Shown one piece after another: positions 36,483 to 61,912 of a DNA stretch of 61,912 bases (within the stretch, counting starts at the first letter, position 1; each line of letters begins with the position of its first letter). The position numbers and the translations under genes were made by a program. The notes under the pieces are model-generated. The model was given only the letters and a program-made list of their open reading frames with translations, made no database searches and was not told the origin of the DNA. Origin of the DNA: Stentor roeselii (lineage: Eukaryota > Ciliophora > Heterotrichea > Heterotrichida > Stentoridae); NCBI GenBank assembly GCA_006503475.1, contig RSEH01000274.1:1-61912 (forward strand), in the 5' to 3' direction.

Positions 36483-39400
36483 CTACTTTCTAAGCAAAAC
36501 CGAGACCCTTGGTGCCCTTGCCCTAGGTTTTTCATCGTCGTTTCCAACTGAGTTTCTTTTCGAGTCAAAAGCGATGAAAGGTTTCTTCAAGTCGTTCTTC
36601 GGCGACGAGATCTGCTCGACAGTGACTTCCGGTTTAAAGAAGCAACAGAAGAAGAAGATTCCATAAAGACTATGAACCAAGAACAGTTCAATCAGTCCAT
36701 AAATAGAGAAGTTAAGCACCCAGAACAGGTAATACTTGGAGGAATACTCAGTTAAAGACCACACCGCAAAGATCGCACTGCAAATGATGATCATCAGGCT
36801 GATCCCGATGATTATCTTGCTCACAGCTTTACTTTTCAGGTTGAAATAATGGCAGAATGCGAAAGGACATGAAAAACACTGGGCAATTAAAAGGACTAAG
36901 AAACCTTGATACCAGTCTTCAAGTCCATAGGCTTCGAAACCGTCTTCGGCCTGAGGCGCGTCGAGGATTTCTTTGTTGTAGAAGATTCCGATTAATGTGA
37001 ACATCATGAACTGTGATGCGAAGACTCTTAGAGTAGTCACGATTCTCAAGTTATTATCACCTGAATCTGCTAAAATCATTACCGGACAATACATCCGAAG
37101 CCCGAAGGACCCGCTTTCATCGTCGATCTTTTCTTTGTCGTTTACATAAAAAATGACGAGTAGAATGACCATCATCCAGAAGACAATGATGAGTAATAAT
37201 AAAGGGTAGTTCATTCTTTCTTCTACTTTAAATTTGATTACGCGACTTTTGTAGTCGGTTGACACGTTGATGCTCTGGTTGCCGATAGATGTGAAAAAGA
37301 ACTTCAAAGAAGAGTTACCGTCAATGACTTCTAGTTTTTTCGCTCCGTGGTAATCATCACCGGAATTCACCGTCACTGTCATTGTTTCATTGTACAGGTC
37401 ATGGTTGATGTCAAGCAGCAGGACTGTCAGATTTGAACAAACATGTTCAGTTGGCTTTTCATCTAAAAACAACTGAATTTGATGTAAAAAGATATGAGCT
37501 CTTTGCTCTGTTATTTTGAAATTTCCTTCTGAGTAAGACTCTCCAGCTGTTGACTTCCCTGAAGTCAACTCGATGACAGTCGCTCCGAATTTATAGTCTC
37601 CTGGAGTGAGGATTGAAAGACCTGTGAATGAACAGACCCCTGCCTCGCAGATCTGGGTCAAGTTTCCATGAATGACTGATTTCGGAGTGGTGAATAGAGA
37701 AACACTGTAATTTCCGTTTTCACTTTCAATGGACTGCAGGGTGTTATCCAGGACGTCGACAGTGACGTTGAAATAATGAGACTCAGGGAATTTCTTCAAG
37801 ATGGGCTCGATTTGAAGTCTTTGTCTTTTAAGTGAAAGTTGTAGTTCATGCTCGTATCCAGTTTCAGTGATTATGGTCAACTTAATGTCACCTTTTTTAA
37901 TAAAGTAAATCTCGAATTCCACCTCTCCTGATACCGCCTCCTTTGAAACTTCACCGAATATTTCATCGTCTGAGGTTAAATTAACTAAACAGTTCGGTTC
38001 CCATGTTGTGTTCACTTGGTCGAATAGTTTTATTTTCACTTGGAAAGGGAAGAAAACTGTTAAAACACTTGAGTTGATTTCTACTTCCAGGTAGGAAAGA
38101 TGAAGCATTGACTTGGGAATAAACGCGTTTTCTGCTGTGATCTGGAAAGTTTCGTTGTAGATCAACGGGTCTTCTTTAGGAGTAAGGCCGGACTTCTCGT
38201 GGATCGCAACTCCGAATTGATAGTCGCCGGGTGTTAGGATTGTTACGGGGGAGAACTCTTTAAAGCCTTTCACTGCAAGACCTTTTGAGTTGCTTGTTAG
38301 TTTGCCCTCTGGAAGAAGGAATATTGAAATGTTGAACTTTCCGTGGGTGTCTAGAAGACTTTCACCGAAACTATCGAATATTTCGACTAGGATGTCGAAG
38401 TAGTTTGAGTCTTGTTCCTAGATGGGTGTTACTATGTGGGGAGTTATTGAAACTTTTTGAGTGTATGGCAAAACTTGCATCTCGAATGATACTGTGAGAC
38501 CGTCGCAGGTTAAAACAGTAACTTTGGCATACCCAACTTCTTTAAAGTACACATTAAACTTCACAGTTCCATCATAAGCAATTTTACTAGTTTCTCCATA
38601 AATAGTCATATTCGAGTTAATAACAACATTGCACTCTTGATTCCAAAGATTTTCTTCTTGATCTTCAATTGTCACATTTATCTGAAAAGCCTCGAAAGTA
38701 CTGACAATTTCGTAGTACTCTGCTTCAATCTCTGATATTACAAGCAAGTCATCAGGAACCTTCGCATTTTCACTTGTTATTTGGTAGGATTCAGGTGAAG
38801 TTAAGAACAAAACTCGGGAGTTTGATTCAGATTCTTTAATTGAAGCCTGGAAGAAAAAGTTTCCTTGCTCTAGAATTGAAACTCTCTGGAAAGTCCATTC
38901 GCCTTTTACTTGAGGATAGTTCATTGAACCTGAAAGATCTCCTTCGGGTGATAGGTTGATCGATATGTTGTAAATTCCGTTTTTGTCTTCGAGGAGAGTT
39001 AGAGAGTTGTCGTAAATTCCGACTTTCACATTGAAGTAGTTTGAATTATCATTCTAATTTTCAATTACGATATGGTCTTCTACTTCAATTTTCCCCTTCA
39101 TAGGGAAAACAACAATTTCATCCGACCTTGAAAAAGTATCACAAACAGTAATCAACAAGCTAAGAGTCCCTGGATTCTTCGTAAAAACCTCAAAATTAGA
39201 CTGCCCAGACCTAGTTTCATGATAAGTACTTCCATAAAGTGTATTATTCCCAACAACTCCAGCTTCACAGACCTTATCATAGCTTTTTCCGATCTGATTA
39301 TAAAGAAAAACATTGACTTTAAAACTGAAAAAAGCTGTAGGTTCCCTGGTACTATACCCAATAGTCATATTTTTCAATTCATGAAACCCGACAGGTAAAT

Positions 39401-41024
39401 TCGACTGATCAACTGAAATTTCATAAACTTGAGTCACTCCTCGAGTCACTTCTTTTCCACTCTCATCCTTCCCAACAGCAGTGAACTGATAACTTCCTTG
39501 ATCAATAATAACCAAATCATTCAAAACAGCATGTCCATCAACAGCGACAACAGAAGGATTTCCATATAAACTATCAGCCCCCACTGAAACCGTAAAAGAA
39601 ACATTGGTCAAACTAAGTTTATTCAGTCCTTCATAGTCGAAAACATCTAAAGTCAAGTTAAACCAGTTGCTAGTTTGTGTCTAAATAAAAAGTACCAGTT
39701 CTGAATCAACTGAAATAATCGTCTGAGGACTTTGAACAGTTTTTGTGAAACCTGCTGAAACTGATAAACAAGTGATTAAAAAGTAACCCTCGCCGATGTC
39801 TGGAGTGTAAAGATGGAAGACTGCCTGGCCGTTTGATGATTTGACTGAAGTTTCTCCGATTAAAGTCAAGTTTGCCTCGATGGTCACAGTTTCTTCATCT
39901 ATGTAGGAAGATTTTTCAGTTGATAGAGAAACGATTATTTCAAACTCGAAGTAAGAAGTGAAAAAAGTTGCACTTGATGGAGAAAGGAAGGCTAGTGGCC
40001 ATTTTTCGACGATTATTTCTCTGTCGTAGGTGATAGGGTCGAGTGACTCTGAACTCGCGATCAGGGAATAGTTTCCGATTGTGTCGATTGAAAGATGAGT
40101 GAATTCAGCGACTCCATTTTTCACCTGAACTTGACTTGCGCCAGTCAGGTTTCCGCTTGAAAGGGCAAGAGTCACGTTGTTTTGACTGTTGTTTGAGTCT
40201 AAAATGTCTGAGTTCAAGTTGAAAATTCCGACTATTACCTCGAATTCACTTCCCACTCGAAGGGACTAAATATAGAGTACCTCTGATGATACGTTCATGA
40301 ATTTCAAACCGAATCTTATCGGCTCTTCAACGGGAGGGTCTGGAGTACCTGCTCCGGTTTCATTTGAAGATGTGGAATTTGACTGAGTTTCATTTGAAGT
40401 TGAACCAGTTTCATTTGAAGATGAACTAGTTTCATTAGAAGTTGAACTAGTTTCATTAGAACTTGAACTAGTTTCATTAGAAGTTGAACTAGTTTCATTA
40501 GAAGTTGAACTAGTTTCATTAGAAGTTGAACTAGTTTCATTAGAACTTGAACCAGTTTCATTAGAACTTGAACCAGTTTCACTTGAACTAGTTTCATTTG
40601 AAGAAACTTCTGATTGCTGAGACGAGTTAGAATTCCCTGTTTCACCTTCTACTCCCTGACCACTTCCTGAGTCACTGGTCTGTTCAGAGGACCCTGTGCT
40701 ATTCGAGTTACTCTGACCTTCAGTCGATACTTCCTGTTGACTTCCTGAATCACTCGCCTGTTCAGATGTCGCTGTGGTGTTCGAGTCACTTCCGCCTGAC
40801 TGGCTTGAAACGTCTTCAGTCGTTGCTTGAGTGTCTTCCGTTTGCAATGAAATAGGTCGGTCTGAGGGCTTTAAGCCTATGAGAAGAACTTTTGAAGACT
40901 CAGAGTTCAATTCGCTCAGACCCTTTGTTGATCTCTCTTTCGCAAGGGTGTCGATTATGTTCAAGTTAACTGAGAATGTGCCGAGAAGAAGAAAAGGCAA
41001 AAGAAACTTTGGAACAACCCTCAT
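36483..41024 (-). CDS. Polycystin-1-like modular receptor, 1,493 aa, four 15-nt introns
   Basis: Signal peptide (1-19), then a Ser/Thr/Asn-rich stalk (residues ~85-235) with about ten SNET repeats, each a glycosylation sequon. From residue ~249 come tandem beta-sandwich modules of about 200 residues marked by a [YW]FN/D-x-x-V-x-(I/V)-x-D pattern. A C-terminal bundle of about six hydrophobic segments (residues ~1250-1440) contains RIVTTLRVFASQFMMFTLIG then FYN, resembling the polycystin-1 helix after its PLAT position. Four phase-0 introns (40266-40280, 39681-39695, 39054-39068, 38418-38432) lie at module borders. One gene, not five, because all segments share frame. It resembles the giant gene at 45912-58601. 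Function (adhesion, mechanosensing) inferred only. Confidence 0.78.
38418..38432 (-). other. 15-nt intron, phase 0
   Basis: GTAACACCCATCTAG. It lies at a module border (ITPHI | EQDSNYFDI); A at position 10. Confidence 0.85.
39054..39068 (-). other. 15-nt intron, phase 0
   Basis: GTAATTGAAAATTAG. It lies at a module border (EDHI | NDNSNYFNV); A at position 10. Confidence 0.85.
39681..39695 (-). other. 15-nt intron, phase 0
   Basis: GTACTTTTTATTTAG. It lies at a module border (DSEL | TQTSNWFNL); A at position 10. Confidence 0.85.
40266..40280 (-). other. 15-nt intron, phase 0
   Basis: GTACTCTATATTTAG. It separates the stalk from the first module (VSSE | SLRVGSEFEVIV); A at position 10. Confidence 0.85.
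40385..40605 (-). repeat. 21-bp coding minisatellite (SNET stalk)
   Basis: On the + strand the 21-mer ctagtttcattagaagttga plus a recurs about eleven times with one- or two-base changes and stays in frame. Each unit encodes seven residues including the N-E-T sequon. Confidence 0.85.
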
Positions 41025-45911: not shown

Positions 45912-48900
45912 ATGTTTTTTATTGCCTTTGTTTTGAGTTTAGTTGACTCTCAATACGTGGGGGTTGACCAGCTGATAGCTGTAAAGAATATTTAGGGAGC
46001 AACAACATCGGCATACTCTTACGTTTTTATTAGTCTTTATGATTCATCAGGAGGCTGGTATCAAGTAGATGGAATAACAATCACTCTCTCTCTGTCACCT
46101 GCCAGTACCTTACTCGGAACAACTTCTTGCACAACTACTTCAGGAAGATGCACATTTAATTACAATGTCCTCTGTAAATACGCAGGAACTTTTGTTTTCC
46201 AAGCCTCAGCCACTTCTTTCACAACTGGATCTTCCTCCAGTTTTACAGTCACAGGAACTTCCGCCTTCAGTACCATTTCCGTCTCACCCAGCACTTCAAG
46301 TCCATCTTCTAACTTCGACTTCACAGTGACTGTGACAATATCTGACTCAAACAGTGCAACGACCACGAATTCATGTGAAGTAAGTCTAAGTGAAAGTGGA
46401 GGTTCGACTATATCAGGGACCACAAGTTTAACATTTGTAGGGTCTTCTACTTTTACTATATACATAACATCAACAGGTAGCAAGACCATAGTTGCAACTT
46501 GTGGAACAGTCACAGGTAGTTCAGCAATAACAGTCATGAGTGACTATTTAAAGATCACATCTTACACTCCATTGGTAATCATTACTCAGCCAAGTACAAG
46601 TCTTGATACTTTTTCAATAACAGTTAAAGTTTATAACTACGACCAGACGAGTATCGAGACAGCACGAGGCGCATATGTTGTTTCATTAGCAGTGAGTCCT
46701 ACAGGGACCATGTCAGGAACAGTTTCAGGCACAACAGCATCAGGAGAGATTACTTTCTCCTCTTTAAGGATCTTGACAAGTGGAACCTTTAGTGTCAGAG
46801 CTTCATGCACGAATATCATCTCAGCGACTTCTGTGACAAGAACAATCACGAACTACGTCCATTCAATAACTTTATCAAGTGATTCAGCAACTCCTTCAAT
46901 GAATTTTCAGTTTACTATCACTGCTACTTTGAAATCAGAAGATAGCGAATTGTATAAAGCGACAAGTGTCACTGTTACTTTAACTGAAAGTACCAACTCT
47001 TTACAAGGAACAACTTCAGCAGCAAGTTCAACTTCAACAGGAATAGCGACTTTAAATGTTTATTGTACAACTACAGGGGCGAAGACGATTGTAGCGACAG
47101 TTGCTGCAAATTCACCATTTTTAGCAGTGACTCAATCAGTGAGTGTAACAATTCAAGCATTGATGTTGGTCTTCGGAACCTTGACCCCAACTGTAATATA
47201 AACTTAGCCAACTGATACATCAATAACTTTCTCTGTCAGTGTTTCAGTTAAGGACAACAGCCAGACAACAATTGAATCTTCAAGAGGTCCTTATTCAATA
47301 ACGATATCTTTAACACCCACAGGGACTACTTCAGGAACCTGGACAATAAACACTTCAAGTGGAACAGCAAGTTTCACAAGTCTTCGAATCATCTCTGCAA
47401 ATACTTACACCTTGACAGCTACTTGCACCACTGCAGGAGTAACCCAAACGACAACTTCAGCTACTTTAACAACATATGTAAAAACTATGACTCTATCAAG
47501 CTCGACCTCCACCCCGACTATGAATTTTGCATTCACGTTAAGTATCACTTTAAAAAATGAAGACACTTCAAGTTTTACTGGAAGTTGCACTGTTTCAATC
47601 ACAGAAAGTTCGAATAGCTTAGTCGCTGCAAGTGGAAGCCTTAGTGTTGCGAATAGTGCAGGAAGTGCAAGTCTTAGTGTTTATTTAACTTCAACTGGCT
47701 CGAAGACTATCACTGCATCATGCCCGGCTTCTGGGAACTTTGCAGCGGTTTCAGCAACTGTGACTGTGACTGGCCAGGCTTTGTTATTAAAGATAAATTC
47801 GGCTTTTACTGCAGTAATTTTTAAACAGCCTGCGAATAGTTTAGTTTCGTTTTCAGTGATTGTTGGAGTTTATGATAGCACTGGGACTTCAGTTGAAAGT
47901 GTTAGAGGTCCATATGATGTTACGATATCTTTATCTCCAACAGTGACAGTTTCAGGAACATGGACAGGACATACTGCATCAGGTTCAATTACATTTTCAT
48001 CACTTCGAATTCTTACATGGAACACTTACACCTTAACAGCTTCATCGGCAGGAATGACCTCAGCGACGACTTCTTCATTTACAACAACGAATTATGTCCA
48101 TACCATTACAATGAGCACATCAAACTCTAGTCCAAGTGTAAACTTTCAATTCACAGTTACAGTGAATCTTTTTGGAGAAGATGGAGGGACTTTTATTGGG
48201 TCTTGTTTAATAACTTTAACGGAAAGTACCTCAAGTTTAATGGGAATAACTAGTACAACGATATCAACAACAGGGACTTATGGGTTTTTAGTTTATCTTA
48301 ATAGTGTTGGAGCTAAGACGATTGTAGCGACTTGTCCTGCATCGGGTTCGAATACGGTTAAGACTCAGAGTTTGGCAGTCACTGCCATGACACTTATTTT
48401 AAAGATTTCTCCAACTAGTCCCACGGTAAGTTTTACATAGATGACAAATAGTTTGAATAGTGTTAGTTTAGTTGTTGGAGTTTATGATAATTCTGGCACT
48501 ACTGTGGAAAGTTCGAGAGGACCTTATACGGTTGCACTTAACTTGTCGCCTACTGGAACTATTTCGGGAACGAGTTCAGGCTCTACCTCATCAGGGCAGA
48601 TCACTTTTTCCAGTATTCGAATTACTTCAGCGGGAACGTTTTCTATAGTAGCTACTTCTTCAACGATAACACAAGCCCAAACGAGTACTGTTACTATTAA
48701 AAACTATGTATATACCATTACCTTAACAGGTCCAGTATCGAATCCTTCAGTTAATTTCGATTTTTCAATAACAGCTACTCTTAAAGGTGAGGACACAAAC
48801 ACTTTCCTTCGAAGTTGTGTCTTGACATTGAGTGAGGTAGCAAATAACCTCGGTGGAACCTTAACCCAAGCCATCACTACTGGGTCTTACACCTTCACAG

Positions 48901-51900
48901 TTTATCTCAAAACTGTTGGAACTTTTAACATAATAGGAACTTGTCCTGCTGAAGATTCAAGTCCAGCTGTAACAGGAACAGTTTCAGTAACTTCTTTGAT
49001 ACTGATTTTGAGATTTGACCCAACTATTACACCAGTAATTAAGAAATAGCCTGCAAATAGTTTGACCAGTTTTTCAGTGACTGTCAAGGTTCTTAGTAAC
49101 GATGGTTCAGTCGTTGAAAGTGTGAGAGGACCTTACACTGTTAGTCTCTCACTAAGTCCTACAGGAACCTTTAGTACAACAGTAAGTGCAAGCACGACAT
49201 CAGGGGTCGTTACCTTTTCTTCACTGAGAATTCTGACTTGGAGCACTTTTACTCTAACAGCTCAATCAAGTAGTGTCACGACACCAGTAACATCATCATC
49301 ATTTACCACAAGAAACTATGTCCATACTATCACTTTATCAAGTACGACAACTACTCCAAGCATGAATTTTGATTTCACCTTGACAGCTGTTTTGAAAGGA
49401 GAAGACACTAACGCTTTTACAGGATCATGTGTAATTACTTTGACTGAATCTACATCTAGTCTTTCTGGAGCTACTTCGAACACAGTAACTGGAGGAACTG
49501 GAACTTTTACTGTATATATGACTTCAACAGGTGCTAAAACTATCACAGCAACTTGCCCCGCATTAGAAAGTAACACTCAAAAGACTCAGACAATATCAAT
49601 AACTGTTCAGTCCCTGATCATAAAAGTCAATACAGTAAGTCCAACTGTAAATTTTACTTAGCCTGTAAAGACCTTAGATTCATTCACAGTGAGTTTAGGG
49701 GTCTATGATAATAGTGGCAATACTGTTGAGTCTACAAGAGGTCCTTACAGTATTTCATTGGCTCTTTCACCGACTGGATCGTTTTCAGGAACAACCACAG
49801 GGCAGACTTCTGCAGGTCTGCTTAGCCTTGCATCATTGAGAATTATCTCTGCGGGGACATTTACAATCCAAGGTTCTGCCACTTCGATAACCTCTGGGTC
49901 GTCATCATCATCCTATACCATAGCAAATTACGTGCATTCAATGACTTTAACATCGTCATCCATGACACCAACTATGAACTTTTTATTCACGATTACAGCA
50001 ACATTAAAAGGAGAAGATACTACTGCATTTACTGGAGCATGTACTGTGGGGTTATCTGAAAGTGCAGCTGTTTTAACTGGAGAGTTGAGCAAAGCTAACT
50101 CAGGAGGAACGGCAACATTTTCAGTTTACTTTTTAGCCGTTACAAGCAATCGAATTATCACAGCCTCATGTCCAGCTTCCGGATCATATCCTTTGGTCAG
50201 TACTACAATAACACTAACAAGTTTGACACTAATACTGAAAATTGGAAGCTTCACACCAATAGTAATAAACAATTAGCCTTCAAACAGCTTGAATGAATTT
50301 TCGATCACAGTAGGTGTTTATGATAACTCAGGAACAAATGTTGAAAGCTCTAGAGGACCTTATTCTATAAGTATAGCATTGTCTACAAGTCCATCAACAG
50401 GGACTCTTTCTGGAACTGCGAGCGGATCAACCACATCAGGGCAGATAACTTTTTCAACTCTAAGAATTTTATCTGCAGGGACTTTTACTATTACTGCATC
50501 GAGTGGAACACTTTCACCTGTCACGACTTCATCAAGTGTAACAGTTGTTAATTATGTCAACACCATTACCCTAACTAACACTCCTACAACTCCCACAGTA
50601 GACCACAGTTTCACCGTGAGCATCAGCTTAAAGGGTGAAGATACAGCTACGTTCACAGGGACTTGCAGCATAACATTATCTGGAACCAACCTTGCAGGAA
50701 CTTTGACTGCTTCAATAACAGGAGGGTCAGGCACAATGTCTGTTTACTTTACGGCTTCAGGTAGTAAGTCTATAACAGCAACATGTCCTGCAGTGGATTC
50801 AAGTCCAGCAAAAACCTTCACTTTGGCTGTAACAGTTCTACAACCTAAACTAAAAATTTCAGGTTTTACTGCACCAGCGCACAGCTTGACAGTTTTTTCT
50901 CTAATAGTGGGAGTATACGACAACTCAGGCACAACACTTCACTCAGTCAGAGGTCCTTATTCAATTTCTCTTACTCTAACACCTTCAGGAGGCACTATTG
51001 GCTCATTGACAGGGTCAACTTCATCAGGTGAGGTAACATTTTCAAACATGCGAATATTATCAGCTAACACCTTTACAATAACAGCCTCAACATCCGATAT
51101 GGTTTCGGCAGTGACATCATCATTCACAGTATATAACTTTGCCTACTCAATAGTATTATCATCATCAACCACCACTCCAAGTCTAAATTTTAACTTTGAT
51201 ATAACAGCGACAGTGAAAGGAGAAGACGGAAACTTATACGCAGGGACCTGCGTCATTAGTCTATCAGTAGCTGACTCAAGTCTAGTCGGAGAAACTTCAA
51301 AAACAACGACGAATTCAGTTTCAGTCATGAGTGTTTACTTCAACTCAGTTGGAAGTAAAATAATTCAAGCGACTTGCCCAGCTTCTTCGCCGAGTCCTGC
51401 AGTTTATCAGACGATTAGCATCGTTGTTCAAGTCAATAAGTTGAAAATTACTTTAAGCACTCCTTTGGTATGATTTATTTAGCCTACTTTGAGCACTGGG
51501 TACCTTTCTTTGAATGTGCAGGTCTATGATTTTAACTTGGTGAATGTGGAAAGTGCGAGAGGAGTTTATCCTATCACGTTGAGCTTGTCTTCGGGATATT
51601 GGACTGGAACCATTTCGGGAAATACTGTCTCTGGGCTATTGGCAATCACTGATATTAGGATACTTACTACTGGAACTTTTACTATTACTGCAAGTTCCAC
51701 TGGTTTAACTTCTGCGGTTTCTTCAAGTCTTTCTATCACAAATGTTGTCCATTTAATAGAAGTTTCTACCAGTACTTTGACTCCAACAATCAATTTCGAT
51801 TTTACTGTTACAGTCAACATTAAAGGAGAGGACGGAAATGCTTATACAGGTACCTGCTCAACTGCCATTACTGAGACTGGTTCAAGTAATATGGTGGGCA

Positions 51901-54900
51901 CACTCTCAAAAATAACTTCAACAGGACTTGTGACATATACTGTTCATTTCACAACGTCTGGAAGTAAAACGATTCGAGCTACATGTAATAATGTTTTTGG
52001 AACCACGACAGTTACTGTTGCCACAATGGAACTCAAGATTTTATCTGTGACGCCCACTGTAAATTATAAATAGCCTACTACCAGTATCATTAGTTTCACC
52101 ATAGAGCTGGGAGTCTATGATACTGCTAAGTCAACCCTTGAAACTTCAAGAGGACCTTACACAATATCTTTATCATTATCTCCAACTGGCACTTTTAGTG
52201 GAACAACTACAGGAGATACTTCGGGTGGACGTTTAACTTTATCAGGTTTAAGGATTCTCTCAGCTGGAACCTTTACATTAACTGCCAGTTCTACTGCTTC
52301 AACAATTGCTTCAGTTTCGTTGAACACCCCTCTGGTTGTCACCAACTTTGTGTACACAGTCAATGCTGCCGTTGATAATGCGAGTCCTTCAAAAAATTTC
52401 GCCTTTACAGTGACTGTTACTTTAAAAGGTGAGGACAACAACTTATTTATGACAACCTCGACAGTAAGTTTATCTGAAACATCAGGAGCGACTATTTCAG
52501 GAGTTTCTTCAGGAAACTCAAATAATGGAGTCGCGACTTTAACCATTTACTTCTCTCAGCCAGGCAGTAAGACAATAAGGGCAACTTGCAACTCAATATA
52601 TGGAGATGTTAGTGTTGATGTTCTAGATCAGGTCTTGAAGATTACTCTTGATACCACTGTAAGGGTTATGCAGCCAGATGATAGTCTTGACGTTTTTCAA
52701 GCTACTGTAGGAGTATATGATAGTAATGGAGCTGTAATTGAAAGCAACAATCAAAATTATGGAATTATTCTATTACTGGATCCCACTGGAAGCATATCCG
52801 GAACAGTTTCGAAGTCAACCACAAGTGGAGTTGCAGTTTTCGGAAATTTACGAATATTATCAAACGGTAGCTTCAAAATTCAGGCTACTTCAACAGGTCT
52901 AGCTTCAGTAGAGACATCAGTGATGACTATAACAAACTATGTCCATACAATAACACTTGCATCCTCAAATGTGAGTCCTTCAGTAAACTTTGATTTCACC
53001 TTGACAGCAACACTCAAAGGAGAGGACCTGCAGCCGTTCCTGAACTCATGTGCGCTTACCTTGTCAGAGACAACTGGAATTGCAATAATAGGATCTACAT
53101 CAGCAACTACATCTACTGGTTCAGCTGATTTTGTAATAGCTTTCGCAACAGCTGGAACTAAATCTCTTTCAGTATCTTGCCCAGCATCAGGACTCAATCC
53201 AATAAAAACAGGAACTCTTTCAATAAGTATTTCATCATTGATTTTAAGAATCAATTCAATAAATCCTACAGTAATCACCATTCAGCCAAGCACAAGTTTG
53301 ACAGAGTTTTCGATATCAATATCAATTTTTGACCATTCCGGAAATAACAAAGAGACACAAAGAGGGCCATACTCAATAACTCTATCAGCTTCTCCTAGCG
53401 GAACAGTGGTAGGAACCTGGTCAGGGACAACAGTATCAGGTGACCTGACTCTGCAAAGTCTTCGAATCTTATCAGAGAATTCTTATATTTTAACGGCAAG
53501 TTCTTCGAATATTGTCTCAGCAGCTTCTTCGTCAATTTCTATTGTGAAGCAACTTTACAGTATGACGATTACTTCAAGTGAGGCAACTCCTTCTGCACAC
53601 TTCGACTTTGTTTTAACTGTAGACTCGACCTCTGAGGATAATAGTGTTTATGCTCATTCATGTCAGATTGATTTAAGTGGAACAGATCTTGCTGGGTCTT
53701 TGAGCAAAACTAGTTTAACCGGACAGATAACTTTTACAGTGAGAGTAACTTTATCAGGTTCTCACACAATAACTGCAAAATCATTAGCAACAGCATCAAG
53801 AGGTGAAGTTTCAACATCCATAACTTTGAACATTCTTGCAAACGTTTTAAGACTATCAACTTTTCAACTTACAGTATTTCCCAAATAGACAATCACAAGT
53901 GTTACGTCCTTAAGCTTTACAGTCTCTGTTTACGATTCCAGTGAGACAACAGTAGAATCATCTCATGGTCCACATATTATCAATATCGTTCTTAGCCCTT
54001 CTGGAACATTAGCAGGAACTACTCAAATAGTCACTGTCAATGGAGTGGCTTCGTTCACAGGAATTAGAGTTCTTTCAGCAGGTTCTTTCCAAATAAGGGC
54101 TTCCTCAGGAGATATGTCACCTGATACAAGCAACACATTAACAGTAACGAACTTTGTGTTTTCAATGACAATTTCGGCAGGAGAGGTCCAAACCGTCGCT
54201 TTCCCCTTTTCAGTGGAAGTTCGAGTAAGAGGAGAAGACTCAGCACTTTTCACAGGGTCAGCAACAATCACATTATCATCAAGATTAAATGGAGTTGATA
54301 CAACATTATCAAGTGATACAGTTACTTCAGGAATAAAAGTCTTTACAGTAACAGAAACGAGTATCGGAATTAAGACATATGTGGCTTCTTGCAGTGGCTT
54401 GAGTCAAATAACTGTTGTTACTGTTAATGTTGCAAAGTTAAAGATTTCTTCGATATCTCCCACCGTATTAAATATATAGCCTTCACTCAGTACAACGTCC
54501 TTTTCAGTAACAGTCGGTGTATACAACCAAGATTTCACAACAATAGAATCCGTATCCGGCATATACACAATAACCCTTTCCTTACTGCCAAACACAGGAG
54601 TACTTTCAGGAACTCTATCAAAGACCTCATCAGGTGGTATAGCAATATTTTCAGGTCTTCGAATCCTTTCCTCAGGTTCTTACACCCTGACAGCATCCTC
54701 CTCTCCAATAATCCCAGGAGTTTCCAATTCCCTGACCATCACAAATTTCATCACAAAATTAGAAGTTTCCCTAAGCAAGTCAACAGTTTCCGCATACGAG
54801 ACCTTTAAATTAACAGTAAATCTTTACGGAGAAGACCAAAAAGCTTTTATTCTGCCAGCATCAATTCAAATAACTGAGAAAAATTCCGAAAAAATCAACG

Positions 54901-57900
54901 GAAATGTGAATTTAACGACTTCAACTGGTGTAACTCAAACACTTCTTTATTTCTATGAAAGTGGAAACAAGGTCCTTGTGATTGAAGCAGGTGACTTGAC
55001 AAGTGAATTAGAAGTCACTGTAAAAAACCTCACAAATCCTGATGTAAAATGCGTGAAATCAACAAATACAGACACCTGCATTCAATGTGTAACCGGCGCT
55101 CAGTTATTCGATGGAAAATGTGAATGTACTTTAAACTCAAACTACTCCTACGACTCAAGATCCTGCCTTTGCAATGAAGGTTTCTCATCAACCAACAACT
55201 ACTGTGTACAATGTGGAAAATACTACTCAAAAAGTGAAGTTTCCGCTAAATTTTCCTCAGATTTCACTAAAATTTTAATAACCTTCGCAGTGCAGCCTGT
55301 TATTTTTTCTGATTGCAACAAGTTTTTAATTATTCCAACAGCTTTACAGAACTATTCTTTTACTTGCACCTGGGAAAATTCTTTGACTCTCAGTATCAAG
55401 TTTTTGACTGTCCCGCCTTCTGACCTGGTGATCGGCATTGACCCTTTGAAGTTGCAGAAAGTTTCAGAAAAATGTTCTTTTGTAGTGGATCAGCTGAGTC
55501 TTGTTGTCAGTTATGATGGAAAACTTCCAGTACCTGACTCAGCGATTTCAGCACCTGATGTGTTTTCACTTGCTTGTTCACGATTTGACTTGGCATTCAC
55601 TACGACGAATAGTGGAAAAGATGCGGTTTATAAGTGGTCGGGAGTTTGTAGTCCTGAGAATTCTAAGGTTTCTGATTATTTAGACTCGATTTCGAATCAT
55701 TTTGGAAAGATACCTTTGAGTATTTTAACGTTGGGTACTTTAAGTTTAACGGTTAATGTGTCCACCCCAGCTTTTCGAACCTATTCAGTAACAACAAAAG
55801 AAGTAAAAATCGATTCGAGTCCTTATCTAACAATCCAATTATCATCAGGTAGTTCAATATCAATAAAAAGATCATCTCCTCTATTAATAAAATCCTTGAT
55901 TCAAGAGAGTTGTGGAAATTCAGACTACACATACAAGTGGACATATTTATCCTCAAGTCCTTCATTAGACTTTTCCTCTATTTTATCTATAAACAAGAGA
56001 GAAAACACTCTTTTAATTCCAAGTGATTCACTTCAAGCAGGATTTTCTTACGAGTTTCAAGTTCAGGTCTCCGACGGGTCTGCCAGCGGCTCCGCCGCTG
56101 TCCTGGTCAATGTCCAGTCAAGTCGCTTGAGTCTCGTCCTTTCTCGCTCGAGTGGCTCAGTGGGGACTGACTCTGACTTCACAGTAAAGGCAATTGCGAG
56201 TGACCCAGATTCAATCAAGTCTTCTTTGAAATACCTTTGGACATGCAAAGAGGCCTCAAGTGAATGTTTAGATAATTCTGGACAAGCTCTTTTCGATTCA
56301 GAGACTTTAAGTGAATTGACTGTCAACAAGTTGAAACTTAGAAATAAAGCAGTTTATGTATTTTCAGTCACTGTTAGCAATGAGGATAAGTCTGAAAGTA
56401 TTTCGATTGAAATCAATGTACAGTCAGGGATTAAAGGACAGGTGATCATTCAACAAGCTTTATCGAAAATTAATGTTGATAAGCAAATGACTATCTTGCC
56501 GACTGTTGTTGATGTAAAATCAACTGATGTTGAATGGTCCGTCGTTCAGGGGCCGTCGTTTGACTTGTCTTCAAAGTACTCCTTTATGACTATTGAAGCA
56601 CTTTCTTTGACTGAAGGATCGTTTTACCAGTTGAAACTTAGTTTAAAAAGTTCAGGATTGGATGTTGAAGCACTTTACTCGTTTTTTACAAATTCTCCTC
56701 CAACTTGTGAAGGACTTTTACAAGAAACTGATGGAAATAAACTTGTTCTAACTGCGAATGGATGTGTTGATGGCGATGACTCTGATTATCCTTTAGCTTA
56801 TCAGTTCGGAGCTAGCATTGGAAAGAAGAAAGTTTGGCTTACTTCAGCTTCTCTTTTAAATGAGTTTAGGTTACTTGTGAGAACTGGCGTTACTTTTGTT
56901 TGGGTTAAAGTTTGTGACTCTGTCGCCAGTTGTGTTGAAATTGATGAGGCTTTTAAAAATCAAGCAACTCGCAGATTAGATGAAATTTCTGATGAGTTTG
57001 ATTCGGAAACTAGTGATCTTGAAAATATTCCATCGGCGATTGTTTATTATTCAAATGTTGCTACTTCAGCTACAATTGTTAAAATGGTTGAAAAATTTAA
57101 AACTTATGTTACAGGAACTTATGTAGATGAAAATGAATTAGACTTGATAATTGACTCCTTGTTTTATATTTTTAATGCGAAAACTGAAGTTACTGAAACA
57201 CAGGCAAATGAACTGACAGTTACTTTGACGAAAGTACTGAAAGGAATCAGTTTTGACTTGACAGATGAACAGGTCTTGGGAATATTTTCCTGTGTTGATG
57301 AAAATGTGAAGTTGATTTACCCGAAAAATATGGTAAATTTAATAGAAATTGTAAGATATCGATGGATACTAAATAAAACTCCAACCCAGAAAGTTACTTT
57401 TAGTTCCAAGTTATTTGTTTCAATGATCCGAAGCTTATCCTCTTCCTCAGACCAAAAAATATCATCAGGAAAATTCGAAATTTTACTAAAAAAAGGTTTT
57501 ATCACCGAAAAAAATTTAGTAATCGACCTGACATTTGCAAAATTCTACGAAAAATCTCTTCCCCTCTTCGACTTATCTATACAACTAAGTGGTAAATACG
57601 AAAGTAACACCCTGACACTATGGACTCCAGAAAACTTTGAACAGACATTAAATGCAAGTATTCAAGTGACTTACTATTCATCAGAATTCCCTTCAGGAAG
57701 CCGATGCCATAATTTAGATAATTTCAACTGGACAACAACAGGTTGCGAGATCATCGATTTAACAGAGGAAAAGATAACTTTCAACTTAATCAACCCTATG
57801 TTGTTAAAAATAGAAAAATACGACTATAACAACTTTTTCCAAGGTCTTTGCATTTTTATTTTATACTCATTACTTGCAGCAGGTTTAATTTTGATCAGCT

Positions 57901-58601
57901 TTTCATGTTTAATGGACAGAGGACTATCAGACGTGAACCACCAAAAGACTCTTCTGATGCTTTTTCCTTTGACAAGTGTGATGATTCCACAGCCAAGACC
58001 ATGGCGAAGACTTTACACTCTTCACTTAGTAACTTCCCAGAGTTTACTTCTGGCACTCATAGGAGGTTTTTACAAGTTATACCCACAAGACGGTGGTTTC
58101 GTGATTTCAACAACAGCGAAAAGTGGAATGTGTGCTGGTTTATGCCAAGCTCTTTGCCTTTCAAACTTAATTCTGATATTTTCTTCATTGAAACATAAGA
58201 AAATCGTGATAGTTTTTTATTTCATCAACTTAATCGTCCTTTGCCTAAGTCTCGCTATAGTGACAGTCATTTTATCCTTTGGAGCCGAGTCTTTCATTTA
58301 CAACTGGGTAAGTGGCTATGTGCTCTTCGGTGCCATCGACATGGTTTTCATCGAGTTCTTCTACGCTTTGTTGATTTTCATGAGATACAAGAAAAATTTA
58401 AAAACCCATCATTTAAGCAATAATCCCAGTATCGACTCATTCAACAAAAACTTCGAAGACCGAGTCGACCCCTTCGGAAGAGACTTCAATGACAACGAGC
58501 GAGTCTTCATGAAAGTCGGAAGAAAACCTGATTCAAGTTCATTGCGACATCCGATAAAGACCCCAGAGTCCGACAAGAAGTTTAACACTCACTATCATTA
58601 G
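45912..58601 (+). CDS. Giant modular polycystin-1-like receptor, about 4,159 aa, 14 introns of 15 nt
   Basis: Signal peptide (MFFIAFVLSLVDS), then about 15 tandem ~200-residue modules (residues ~24-2970). Each has VGVYDNSG..VES.RGPY.I.LSLSPTG, SSLRILSAGTF, NYVHTITL and LKGED....GSC.I.LSES blocks, like two beta-sandwiches, and ends LKI-P-T. A Cys-rich EGF-like patch follows (~2978-3033), then REJ-like repeats (~3150-3440), a GPS-like SRCHNLDNFNWTTTGCE (~3859) and about six C-terminal helices (~3900-4100) with a PRPWRRLYTLHL segment resembling polycystin-1. No PLAT domain. Ten frames separated by TAG are one gene: all lie in the same phase and each TAG ends a 15-nt intron. Surface adhesion or mechanosensing is inferred. 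Confidence 0.88.
45981..45995 (+). other. 15-nt intron, phase 0
   Basis: GTAAAGAATATTTAG. It separates the signal-peptide exon from module 1. Confidence 0.88.
46575..46589 (+). other. 15-nt intron, phase 0
   Basis: GTAATCATTACTCAG. Module 1/2 border (TYTPL | PSTSLDTF). CAG end, so no stop codon betrays it; found by alignment to sister borders. Confidence 0.82.
47193..47207 (+). other. 15-nt intron, phase 0
   Basis: GTAATATAAACTTAG. Module 2/3 border (TPT | PTDTS). Confidence 0.9.
47814..47828 (+). other. 15-nt intron, phase 0
   Basis: GTAATTTTTAAACAG. Module 3/4 border (AFTA | PANSL). CAG end, silent in the frame. Confidence 0.82.
48426..48440 (+). other. 15-nt intron, phase 0
   Basis: GTAAGTTTTACATAG. 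Module 4/5 border (SPT | MTNSL). Confidence 0.9.
49035..49049 (+). other. 15-nt intron, phase 0
   Basis: GTAATTAAGAAATAG. Module 5/6 border (TITP | PANSL). Confidence 0.9.
49647..49661 (+). other. 15-nt intron, phase 0
   Basis: GTAAATTTTACTTAG. Module 6/7 border (SPT | PVKTL). Confidence 0.9.
50262..50276 (+). other. 15-nt intron, phase 0
   Basis: GTAATAAACAATTAG. Module 7/8 border (FTPI | PSNSL). Confidence 0.9.
51468..51482 (+). other. 15-nt intron, phase 0
   Basis: GTATGATTTATTTAG. Module 9/10 border (STPL | PTLST). Confidence 0.9.
52059..52073 (+). other. 15-nt intron, phase 0
   Basis: GTAAATTATAAATAG. Module 10/11 border (VTPT | PTTSI). Confidence 0.9.
52659..52673 (+). other. 15-nt intron, phase 0
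   Basis: GTAAGGGTTATGCAG. Module 11/12 border (LDTT | PDDSL). CAG end, silent in the frame. Confidence 0.82.
53271..53285 (+). other. 15-nt intron, phase 0
   Basis: GTAATCACCATTCAG. Module 12/13 border (INPT | PSTSL). Same 15 bases as the DHHC-gene intron at 14694-14708. Confidence 0.82.
53874..53888 (+). other. 15-nt intron, phase 0
   Basis: GTATTTCCCAAATAG. Module 13/14 border (FQLT | TITSV). Confidence 0.9.
54465..54479 (+). other. 15-nt intron, phase 0
   Basis: GTATTAAATATATAG. Module 14/15 border (ISPT | PSLST). Confidence 0.9.
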
Positions 58602-58611
58602 ATAATAATTC

Positions 58612-60957
58612 ATGAAAGTCGAAAAAAGACTGCCGAAATTACTTAAACTGCCCAGATATCCTTCTGAAAGGTCCTTCGAGTCAGCTACTCGAGCGATTTC
58701 TCCAATCAGCAACAATGAGGCACTCGCTGTTGTCAAAAATTCTGACTCGTTTCGGTCTAGTCTTGTCTCTCGTAATGCGACTCCTATTGATGTGATCGAT
58801 AACAGGTATTCCTTCTGCCCTCCTCAAGATAAATTTAAAAGAACTTCAGCAACTTGCAAGCTTTGCAAGCAACTTGAACGAGAAGTAGAAAATTATAAAA
58901 GAACTGTCAGTAGCTTGAAGGAAAAGACTGCTGTCAATGAAAAACATTTGAAACAATATGAAAGTCTTTTACTTATCAAGGAAAATCGGTTGAAAGAAAG
59001 AGAAAGTTCGATTAATGAACTTTATGATGGTTTGCAGGGAAAAGTTTATTCAAAAGTTCGGGATTTTCAAAGAGATTTTAAATTTCAGTTAAAAGAAAAG
59101 GGGATCAGTGAATGTTCAGTACAAACTACTGGAATCGATGATTTTGACTTTGAAAAAAAAAGACTAGAAGAAAAAAATCTTAAAATCGAAAAAATCTTGG
59201 AAGAAATTTCAATTTTTTCACAATTTCCTAGTGAAAAATCCTATAAACCTTCAAGAAAACTCAATAATTCACATTATAAAAACCTTACAATTATCCTCTA
59301 CCCAGAAATAAACCTCATTCACAACAAACGGTCATCACCTTCTACACAAAATGAAAAAGAATCCCAAACAGACCGTTCAAAACTTCTAAAATTTTCATCA
59401 AAAGTGACAAAATCCAGTCAAACCGAATCATTTCCTTCAGATCTTCCAGAAAACGTCTCAGGTTTAAAAGATCGAGAATCTCTTCTTTCACAGAAACTTC
59501 AGAAAATTTTAGAAAAAGAATCAGAAATGTTGAAATTTTCATCAGATCTTCAAAAAAGAAAGATTGAACTAGACCAACAAGCGAAAAACTTGTCTTTATC
59601 TTCTAGAAAGGATAGTAAAGACTGTTTCTCGTCTGAGTCTCGTGAAAGAAGCGGGCGCTGTGACCGCTGTGAAGACTTTTTAACTGATGAGAGCAGAAAA
59701 GACCTTGAGTTGATGATAGAAGCGCATTATAAGAAAAAAAGAGATTCGTTGACTTTGTCTCATGAATGCACTGTTGGGACAACAAGACAAACGTCAGTTA
59801 AATCGACTCCTGAGAGAAATTTTAGTAAACTTCAAGAAAGTATTATTAAAGATCAGCAATTGTTTAGGTCTCCTCAAGAAGTTAGCTCGAATATGAAAAT
59901 CAATGGATTTAAGTCTATTGAGGATAATGAGTATTCTTTTTTTAAACAACTTAGCATGTCAGGGAATAGCGACTGCATCGAAGGACTGACTCCAATCAGA
60001 AAGTCATCCTTTCTCGAAAAAGACTTCGACGACAAATCCGATGAAAAAAACAACGACAAGTCCTGTCACGACCATTCTGACAACTCAGGAAACGAGCTTC
60101 AGTCCCTTCCTCATTCCCGCGACGAGCCGACTCACCAATTATCAATCGTCGCAAGACTAAAAGCAAAACTTCAGCAAAAAGCCTATGAAGCCGAGCAACA
60201 AGTAAAATTAAAAGAATTTTTTTATCAACAAGAAAACGAGAAGTTCATGAAAATCATTCAACAATTCGAAAGTTTTAATTTAACCCTTTCCAAAGAAAAC
60301 CAGGAATTAAAAGAAAAGTTAAAAAATCTAACACGAGAATTCGATGTTTTAAATGAAGAAAAAGAAAGAAATCTTCAAGTCATTCAAAAGTTTGAAGAAG
60401 ATTTTTCGGAGTTTAACAGAAAAGTAGAGGAGTTAAATGAAGAAAACTCGAAATTAGAAGAGTTGAATGGAAAACTCAAGGCTCGACTTTTGATTTATAA
60501 GAATAAAAGGGTCAGTCATGAGGGAAGTGAAGTTTTACATGAAGAACTTGATCAGTTGATTCACCAAATGCATGAAAAACTTCTGGGAATGCAGGAAAAA
60601 GAGAAAGAATTAATGCAGTTAAAGAGAGAACTTAGCATTGAACATGAAAATAACTTGAATAATGCAGAATGTCTTAAAATTTTGTTCAGTGATTTAAGCA
60701 GGGAAAAAAAGGATCTTTTGGCAGCTAAGGAAGAATTCGCTTTTCAGAAAGCTGCTGTTATTGAAATTGAAAAAAATCATCAGCAGCAGGGATTGTTACT
60801 TGATATTAAGGAAAAAGAACTGCTTAGGTTTAAAGATGAACTTGTTGAAAAAGAAAGAATTTTTTCAGCTTATAATAGACGATCACCTACGAAGATGTTT
60901 AAAAGGATGAATACTCAGTTAGGGAAGTTAAAGCAAGACTCTTCGGATACGTTTTAA
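58612..60957 (+). CDS. Long coiled-coil protein, 781 aa
   Basis: Start ATG 58612, ten nt after the previous stop. A short N-terminal basic region includes CKLCKQL near residue 83. Coiled coils span residues ~85-160 and ~510-765 (EREVENYKRTVSSLKEKTAV; ELKEKLKNLTREFDVLNEEK; EKEKELMQLKRELSIEHENN), separated by a Ser/Lys/Glu-rich linker with a CDRCEDF motif. No diagnostic domain; centrosomal or basal-body proteins often look like this. Stop TAA. Function unknown. Confidence 0.7.
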   Translation: MKVEKRLPKLLKLPRYPSERSFESATRAISPISNNEALAVVKNSDSFRSSLVSRNATPIDVIDNRYSFCPPQDKFKRTSATCKLCKQLEREVENYKRTVSSLKEKTAVNEKHLKQYESLLLIKENRLKERESSINELYDGLQGKVYSKVRDFQRDFKFQLKEKGISECSVQTTGIDDFDFEKKRLEEKNLKIEKILEEISIFSQFPSEKSYKPSRKLNNSHYKNLTIILYPEINLIHNKRSSPSTQNEKESQTDRSKLLKFSSKVTKSSQTESFPSDLPENVSGLKDRESLLSQKLQKILEKESEMLKFSSDLQKRKIELDQQAKNLSLSSRKDSKDCFSSESRERSGRCDRCEDFLTDESRKDLELMIEAHYKKKRDSLTLSHECTVGTTRQTSVKSTPERNFSKLQESIIKDQQLFRSPQEVSSNMKINGFKSIEDNEYSFFKQLSMSGNSDCIEGLTPIRKSSFLEKDFDDKSDEKNNDKSCHDHSDNSGNELQSLPHSRDEPTHQLSIVARLKAKLQQKAYEAEQQVKLKEFFYQQENEKFMKIIQQFESFNLTLSKENQELKEKLKNLTREFDVLNEEKERNLQVIQKFEEDFSEFNRKVEELNEENSKLEELNGKLKARLLIYKNKRVSHEGSEVLHEELDQLIHQMHEKLLGMQEKEKELMQLKRELSIEHENNLNNAECLKILFSDLSREKKDLLAAKEEFAFQKAAVIEIEKNHQQQGLLLDIKEKELLRFKDELVEKERIFSAYNRRSPTKMFKRMNTQLGKLKQDSSDTF

Positions 60958-61912
<955 letters not shown>

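Follow-up and report, generated by a model that had tools for sequence, protein, structure and literature searches.

The 61,912-nucleotide (nt) stretch of Stentor roeselii DNA analysed here (assembly GCA_006503475.1, contig RSEH01000274.1, positions 1 to 61,912 of the forward strand; hereafter the window) carries at positions 45912-58601 (+) what is probably a single gene for a giant cell-surface protein, whose array of immunoglobulin (Ig)-like domains would have grown by duplication of a unit that carried its intron along. From the ATG at 45912 to the stop codon ending at 58601 it forms a single open frame of 4159 codons with zero internal stops once 14 introns are removed, and the predicted protein starts with a signal-peptide exon, continues with 15 repeats, each some 195 amino acids (aa) long, and ends in about 1175 C-terminal residues. 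The first-pass annotation, made from the window alone, had proposed one giant gene with about 15 modules of some 200 residues, which was confirmed by this frame, by seven further gene models with the same layout, by a repeat count of 15 and by one-module exons of 192-202 aa; the conserved junction LKI..P|P..SL which it described was likewise recovered at the module borders when the modules were compared. In the spliced coding sequence (CDS) no TGA, TAA or TAG stands in frame ahead of the terminal TAG and 19 TGG codons are present, thus no departure from the standard code was seen.

All 14 introns in 45912-58601 are exactly 15 nt long, lie in phase 0 and follow the pattern GTA-N6-A-N3-AG. They occupy 13 of the 14 inter-module junctions as well as the border between signal peptide and module 1, hence 14 of 15 borders, so that the earlier claim of a 15-nt phase-0 intron at nearly every junction holds. 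The sole intron-free border, M8|M9 at about 50876, continues at spliced length without extra residues. Searched in any frame, the 15-nt pattern has 14 occurrences in the gene, all of them at repeat borders. Its count in the spliced CDS is 0, versus a mean of 2.8 (maximum 11) over 200 codon shuffles. Ten introns contain an in-frame stop; those starting at 46575, 47814, 52659 and 53271 do not and were recognised by motif and border position.

Exon 1 (45912-45980) encodes a signal peptide, judged by eye, and about nine residues in the place where other borders have the A strand or LKI segment; an equivalent first exon is present in four other gene models (C88, C490, C432 and C264). The intron at 45981-45995 leads to module 1 (45996-46574), after which introns and modules alternate on the plus strand: intron 46575-46589 and module 2 (46590-47192), intron 47193-47207 and module 3 (47208-47813), intron 47814-47828 and module 4 (47829-48425), intron 48426-48440 and module 5 (48441-49034), intron 49035-49049 and module 6 (49050-49646), intron 49647-49661 and module 7 (49662-50261). 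Beyond the intron at 50262-50276, exon 8 (50277-51467) comprises modules 8 and 9 with the intron-free border between them, followed by intron 51468-51482 and module 10 (51483-52058), intron 52059-52073 and module 11 (52074-52658), intron 52659-52673 and module 12 (52674-53270), intron 53271-53285 and module 13 (53286-53873), intron 53874-53888 and module 14 (53889-54464), and finally intron 54465-54479 and the last exon (54480-58601), which starts with module 15.

The same arrangement recurs in the genome, which has 44.39 Mb in 522 contigs. A search with a single module gave at least 135 matching places (150 of 188 candidates scored). Eight gene models were built: W (45912-58601), Wm (minus strand of the window, 41024-36483), C88, C50, C490, C432, C264 and C264b, of which the last lacks its 5' part. 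Three rounds of search with a module profile whose edges had been trimmed returned 96, 96 and 97 matches, with C432 falling from 11 to 10. Once two were set aside, a short overlapping match within C88 and a partial match within the C-terminal part of C264, the 97 matches left 95 modules, and exclusion of the first C264b module, which has no upstream border, left 94 borders. In these eight models of one genome a 15-nt border intron was present at 85 of the 94 borders (C88 24/24, W 14/15, C490 12/13, C264 11/13, C50 9/11, C432 8/10, Wm 4/5, C264b 3/3), in agreement with the tandem duplication of an exon together with its intron that had been suggested for the window. The distance from intron to profile start was 10 residues in 78 of the 85 cases and nine in four; 7, 0 and 15 occurred once each, all in first modules, whose starts are poorly aligned. 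Single-unit exons across the family measure 564-621 nt (74 measured), and the C-terminal 1156-1175 codons of seven genes, as well as 229 codons of Wm, need no intron. The intron-free border between signal peptide and M1 in C50 was placed roughly, and an intron-free border may hold a stop-free intron of deviant form. In C490, C50, C432, C264 and Wm the border nearest the 3' end of the gene is intron-free, which accounts for five of the nine such borders. A single old loss together with Wm would explain this, as would cDNA-mediated loss that started at the 3' end.

Of the 85 introns 82 were chosen by the in-phase motif and three, of which two lack A at position 10 and one has GTG, were added for their in-frame stop; all 85 lie in phase 0, the in-phase position being a selection condition for the 82 found by motif. 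An in-frame stop is present in 55 of them, always as a terminal TAG. After intron removal zero internal stops remained in any of the eight models, and as all stops interrupting the frames lie inside border introns, the 55 stop-bearing stretches represent a motif-free sample. In this sample GT..AG at 15 nt was found in 55/55, GTA in 54/55 and A at position 10 in 53/55. The motif itself served to find the 30 stop-free introns, whose motif counts therefore carry no weight as evidence, and GTA/CAG probabilities, circular for motif-picked introns, were not used. Intron A+T is 74.7%. These numbers bear on the idea that there is no splicing at all, the border TAGs being read through with five more residues per border, or each frame being a separate gene. 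It would account for elements that are all 15 nt long and in phase 0, so that the frame is preserved, and for the 30 of 85 that are stop-free. However, the stop-bearing stretches, all 55 with TAG as last codon, show a constraint on nucleotides that equals the intron rule of Stentor coeruleus (PMC9505925), the M8|M9 border lacks exactly the 15-nt stretch, and single-module exons start right behind the intron and have no signal peptide. We consider this idea exceedingly improbable as a whole, and readthrough of TAG in place of splicing appears unlikely from the letters.

Every repeat consists of two Ig-like domains that are homologous to each other (one row of the alignment used for the pair is misplaced). 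AlphaFold2 models reached a mean predicted local distance difference test (pLDDT) score of 91 for module 6 and 87 for exon 8. In the exon-8 model the border at 199/200 falls between strands E191-195 and E207-214, the LKI strand being supplied by the preceding unit; the module border is thus predicted to sit in a loop inside the first Ig-like domain and not at a domain edge, a placement based on the strand ranges of one predicted model. A tandem array with a single intron in each unit yields exons of unit length whatever the intron's position, and the correspondence of exon and module follows simply from this. For the module, no Pfam family scored above cut-off in five module queries, a bacterial-type Ig-like (Big) match above cut-off included; a sequence search of PDB gave E 0.056 or worse with the module profile and 0.28 or worse with the C106 paralog, and Foldseek with the exon-8 model returned mostly complement/macroglobulin and axoneme chains, with TM values of 0.21-0.36 among the 50 matches listed. 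A prokaryotic source of the module was considered but not adopted; 425 pattern matches included a single one, of 29% identity (residues 7-81), in a Gemmatimonadota metagenome-assembled genome.

The position of the border is also relevant to exon shuffling of the animal kind, in which symmetric domain exons are moved between genes via recombination in introns, and to which the modules had at first been likened. By the intron phase rules of metazoan exon shuffling it can point to internal exons that are all symmetric (0-0) with a signal-peptide exon ahead of them. The likeness is formal, though, since the border lies within a domain loop in the exon-8 model. Introns of 15 nt would also leave almost no space for recombination, and nearly all module matches (C102, C115 and C220 left out) are on contigs with a C-terminus of the family. 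Such shuffling is in our view quite unlikely.

The history of the array was read from a tree of 94 modules, whose bootstrap has not settled and which is rooted at midpoint only. It contains positional orthologs in C490, C50, C432 and often C264, and part of the array is consequently older than the split of these genes. Modules of W and C88 form a group of their own (88/85) in which they are interleaved, with only some firm pairs (W_01/C88_01 100/99, W_04/W_06 100/88). C490_05, C490_06 and C490_07 cluster (100/82) next to C50_05 (94/59, weak), an apparent expansion with introns at all of its borders. Mapped on the tree, the 85 presences and nine absences require at least six changes versus a mean of 8.8 when shuffled, and the last modules of C490, C50, C432 and C264, which form one clade (100/91), account for four of the nine absences. 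Tandem duplication of the unit together with its intron is supported, the same layout being present in the seven other gene models.

Several observations weigh against this reading. Thirty of the 85 introns are stop-free and were recognised by motif at a border, and chance matches arise too: two in-phase 15-nt matches lie off the borders, one at 107701 in module 2 of C490 (stop-free, excluded from the model by hand) and one at 122209 in the C-terminal exon of C432 (stop-free, removed in the model and counted as non-border), neither being taken as an intron. As a control, the 16-nt form of the pattern matches three places in the 4159-aa gene, 0 of them at borders. Among 13 further module-bearing paralogs, of which the last modules only were considered, a border intron was seen once or more in six (L004, L008, L011, L017, L018, L021) and not at all at those modules in seven (L010, L012, L013, L014, L015, L020, L022); in parts of the family the introns would thus have been lost, have spread late or be absent, which speaks against a simple history. 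The tree is unrooted and weak at depth, 27 of its 91 inner branches being starred, hence at some intron-free borders loss cannot be told from late gain. Finally, likeness of introns did not follow likeness of modules: Mantel tests gave r=0.021 (p=0.29) with the module behind the intron and r=0.028 (p=0.26) with the one ahead of it. Membrane topology, moreover, comes from a simple hydropathy scan, and function from distant homology.

The lack of signal in the intron letters would suit a further alternative, namely that the units were duplicated intron-free and 15-nt introns were inserted later, in parallel, at one hot spot per unit. Intron letters are unrelated even in sister units, and the exon letters after the intron are strongly biased, with CCN following 65 of the 86 listed introns (one being the non-border match in C432). 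However, at third codon positions eight chosen pairs, including the closest, differ by 57-68%, and with such saturation unrelated intron letters are to be expected in any case. Parallel insertion would also demand that one site out of the roughly 600 in a unit be struck up to 85 times, each time in phase 0, while none was recognised in the homologous loop of the unit's second half; the exon base ahead of the intron is mixed (A 40, T 26, G 14, C 6), and an inherited intron needs only six changes on the tree. We regard it as very unlikely. Of the two trees the first-pass annotation had envisaged, that of modules thus spoke for co-duplication and the intron letters were uninformative; with no signal in the letters, we infer co-duplication from place, phase and module tree.

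The last exon encodes, after module 15, a Cys-rich stretch, a PKD/REJ-related region, a degenerate GPS (CHNLDNFNWTTTGC) and four clear membrane segments according to a hydropathy scan, with perhaps a fifth by eye. A Pfam scan of the 4159-aa protein gave no REJ, GPS, PLAT or channel match and, for the last exon, none at E 1; the only entry was K319L-like_PKD, sub-threshold at 25 versus a cut-off of 27 bits. Residues 198-835 of the last exon nevertheless align to paralog C106 (E 6e-26), in which Pfam recognises REJ (3.7e-27) and GPS (1.4e-7). In the 4159-aa protein the GPS-like stretch is followed by neither HLS/T nor C.C, and a membrane segment lies downstream of it. GPS-like C..W..GC stretches recur among the paralogs, several of them with HLS behind (e.g., L008, L011, L014, L029). 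Self-cleavage of a GPS takes place at an HL(S/T) site. As this site and the second Cys pair are absent, the 4159-aa protein is probably without self-cleavage, and some paralogs may be self-cleaving. The REJ/GPS likeness noted at the outset therefore stands for C106 and, in the 4159-aa protein, not by Pfam and with a degenerate GPS. Membership in the polycystin-1 family was rejected, as Pfam found no PLAT or polycystin channel domain in the last exon at E 1; at the C-terminal ends of two REJ/GPS-type paralogs, on which no family search was run, neither was obvious by eye. There was no seven-transmembrane Pfam match in the 4159-aa protein either. From its sequence we call it REJ/GPS-related and not a polycystin-1; it is probably no adhesion G protein-coupled receptor either.

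A genome search with the last exon gave at least 33 places at E 0.01 or better, two of which are C88 modules and not C-termini, leaving at least 31 related C-termini including that of the 4159-aa gene, a lower bound because 34 of 242 candidates were scored. The statement that the protein is not tied to any named family was thus too strong, one of these relatives having REJ and GPS by Pfam.

Taken together, we infer splicing, surface location, an adhesive or sensing role and the loss of autoproteolysis. In the ciliate lineage, an ancestral receptor gene would have contained a single ordinary 15-nt intron close to the 5' end, at the A-B loop of the first Ig-like domain just past the signal peptide; unequal exchange would then have multiplied the two-domain unit in tandem, every copy carrying the intron, and a few copies would later have lost it cleanly. 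Exon and repeat would coincide by this duplication route, not because introns mark domain borders or serve recombination. The product would begin with a signal peptide and an extended extracellular stalk of 15 units with two Ig-like beta-sandwich domains each (about 30 domains), followed by the Cys-rich stretch, a REJ/PKD-related juxtamembrane part with the degenerate GPS and four to five membrane helices; more tentatively, it might work in adhesion or sensing as a long membrane-anchored stalk. It is conceivable, if rather unlikely, that the family grew by the intron-bearing double Ig-like unit and kept nearly all introns (85/94) for a role such as controlled retention. In that case a retained intron would either halt translation (55/85) or put five residues into the A-B loop (30/85), the gene would have grown exon by exon without any intronic recombination, and a count of 14-24 introns would set single genes extremely far apart from the rest.

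A second, smaller gene of the family lies on the minus strand of the window (36483-41024) and encodes a signal peptide, a Ser/Thr/Asn-rich head with repeated SNETSS motifs and five modules; the first bases of its four introns are 40280, 39695, 39068 and 38432, and none stands ahead of module 5. Its membrane region is placed 229 codons past the last module, which leaves no room for a REJ/GPS part. Other relatives differ in the head: L028 (G000:C335) combines a related C-terminus with a Laminin_G_3 head, and L023 and L025 (G000:C12, C248) have heads with Giardia VSP-like Cys-rich stretches, all by Pfam. L017 (G000:C195:28255-32226) contains two in-frame TGA and in L020 (G000:C179) a module is split across two frames, for which pseudogenes, sequencing errors or unusual introns are candidates. 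Module matches apart from the C-termini (G000:C506:144506-145048, C102, C115, C220), one of them within a 4195-aa open frame, are possibly modules in other genes or more family members. Directly downstream of the 4159-aa gene, 58609-60957 (+) is a long open frame of 782 codons from stop to stop, coiled-coil-like and charged by eye, and at 61341-61912 (+) the start of a beta-tubulin-like gene, also read by eye, is ended by the contig end.

In comparison with known systems, membrane proteins of the REJ/GPS polycystin-1 type possess PLAT, a polycystin channel, 11 membrane segments and PKD repeats. The likeness consists in the REJ and GPS of paralog C106 and in the alignment of the 4159-aa protein with it; the latter differs in having four to five membrane segments instead of 11, an Ig-like array instead of PKD repeats, and a degenerate GPS. 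With metazoan exon shuffling (PMC8001218) it shares symmetric exons encoding extracellular repeats; here the intron is off the domain border in the model, and introns of 15 nt provide next to no space for intronic recombination as a route. In S. coeruleus 92.8% of 8806 introns are 15 nt long, with GT..AG, the branch A mostly at position 10 and an A+T content of 75.6% versus 74.7% here, and introns occur in 18% of genes, mostly one each and 5'-biased (PMC9505925). In contrast, 14 introns in one gene and 24 in a paralog were found here, each at the same place of the repeat. Such an array is a clean natural case of repeats and introns evolving jointly, in which a single genome holds many apparent copies of one intron, all at a homologous site, and with its handful of clean absences it allows direct measurement of intron loss, drift of minimal introns and splice-site constraint. 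No description of an Ig-like, REJ-related family was met with in open-licence full texts, judged by titles and the starts of abstracts; the present genome shows a large family of giant proteins of this kind in a Stentor-like ciliate. The closest known precedent is provided by the Tetrahymena leucine-rich repeat (LRR) arrays with 90-bp exons (PMC6564038), for which the authors invoke the clonal expansion of exon plus intron: these too are tandem arrays of a ciliate in which exon period equals repeat period, intron phase is uniform and repeats interlock over exon borders. Whereas Tetrahymena has LRR of exactly 90 bp, phase 2 and tens of thousands of exons, Stentor has a double Ig-like unit, exons of 564-621 nt, phase 0, a signal peptide and a membrane C-terminus, in eight genes modelled and more partly seen. 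Novel in the present array are its repeat unit and protein family, the intron phase and, most of all, an intron length of 15 nt.

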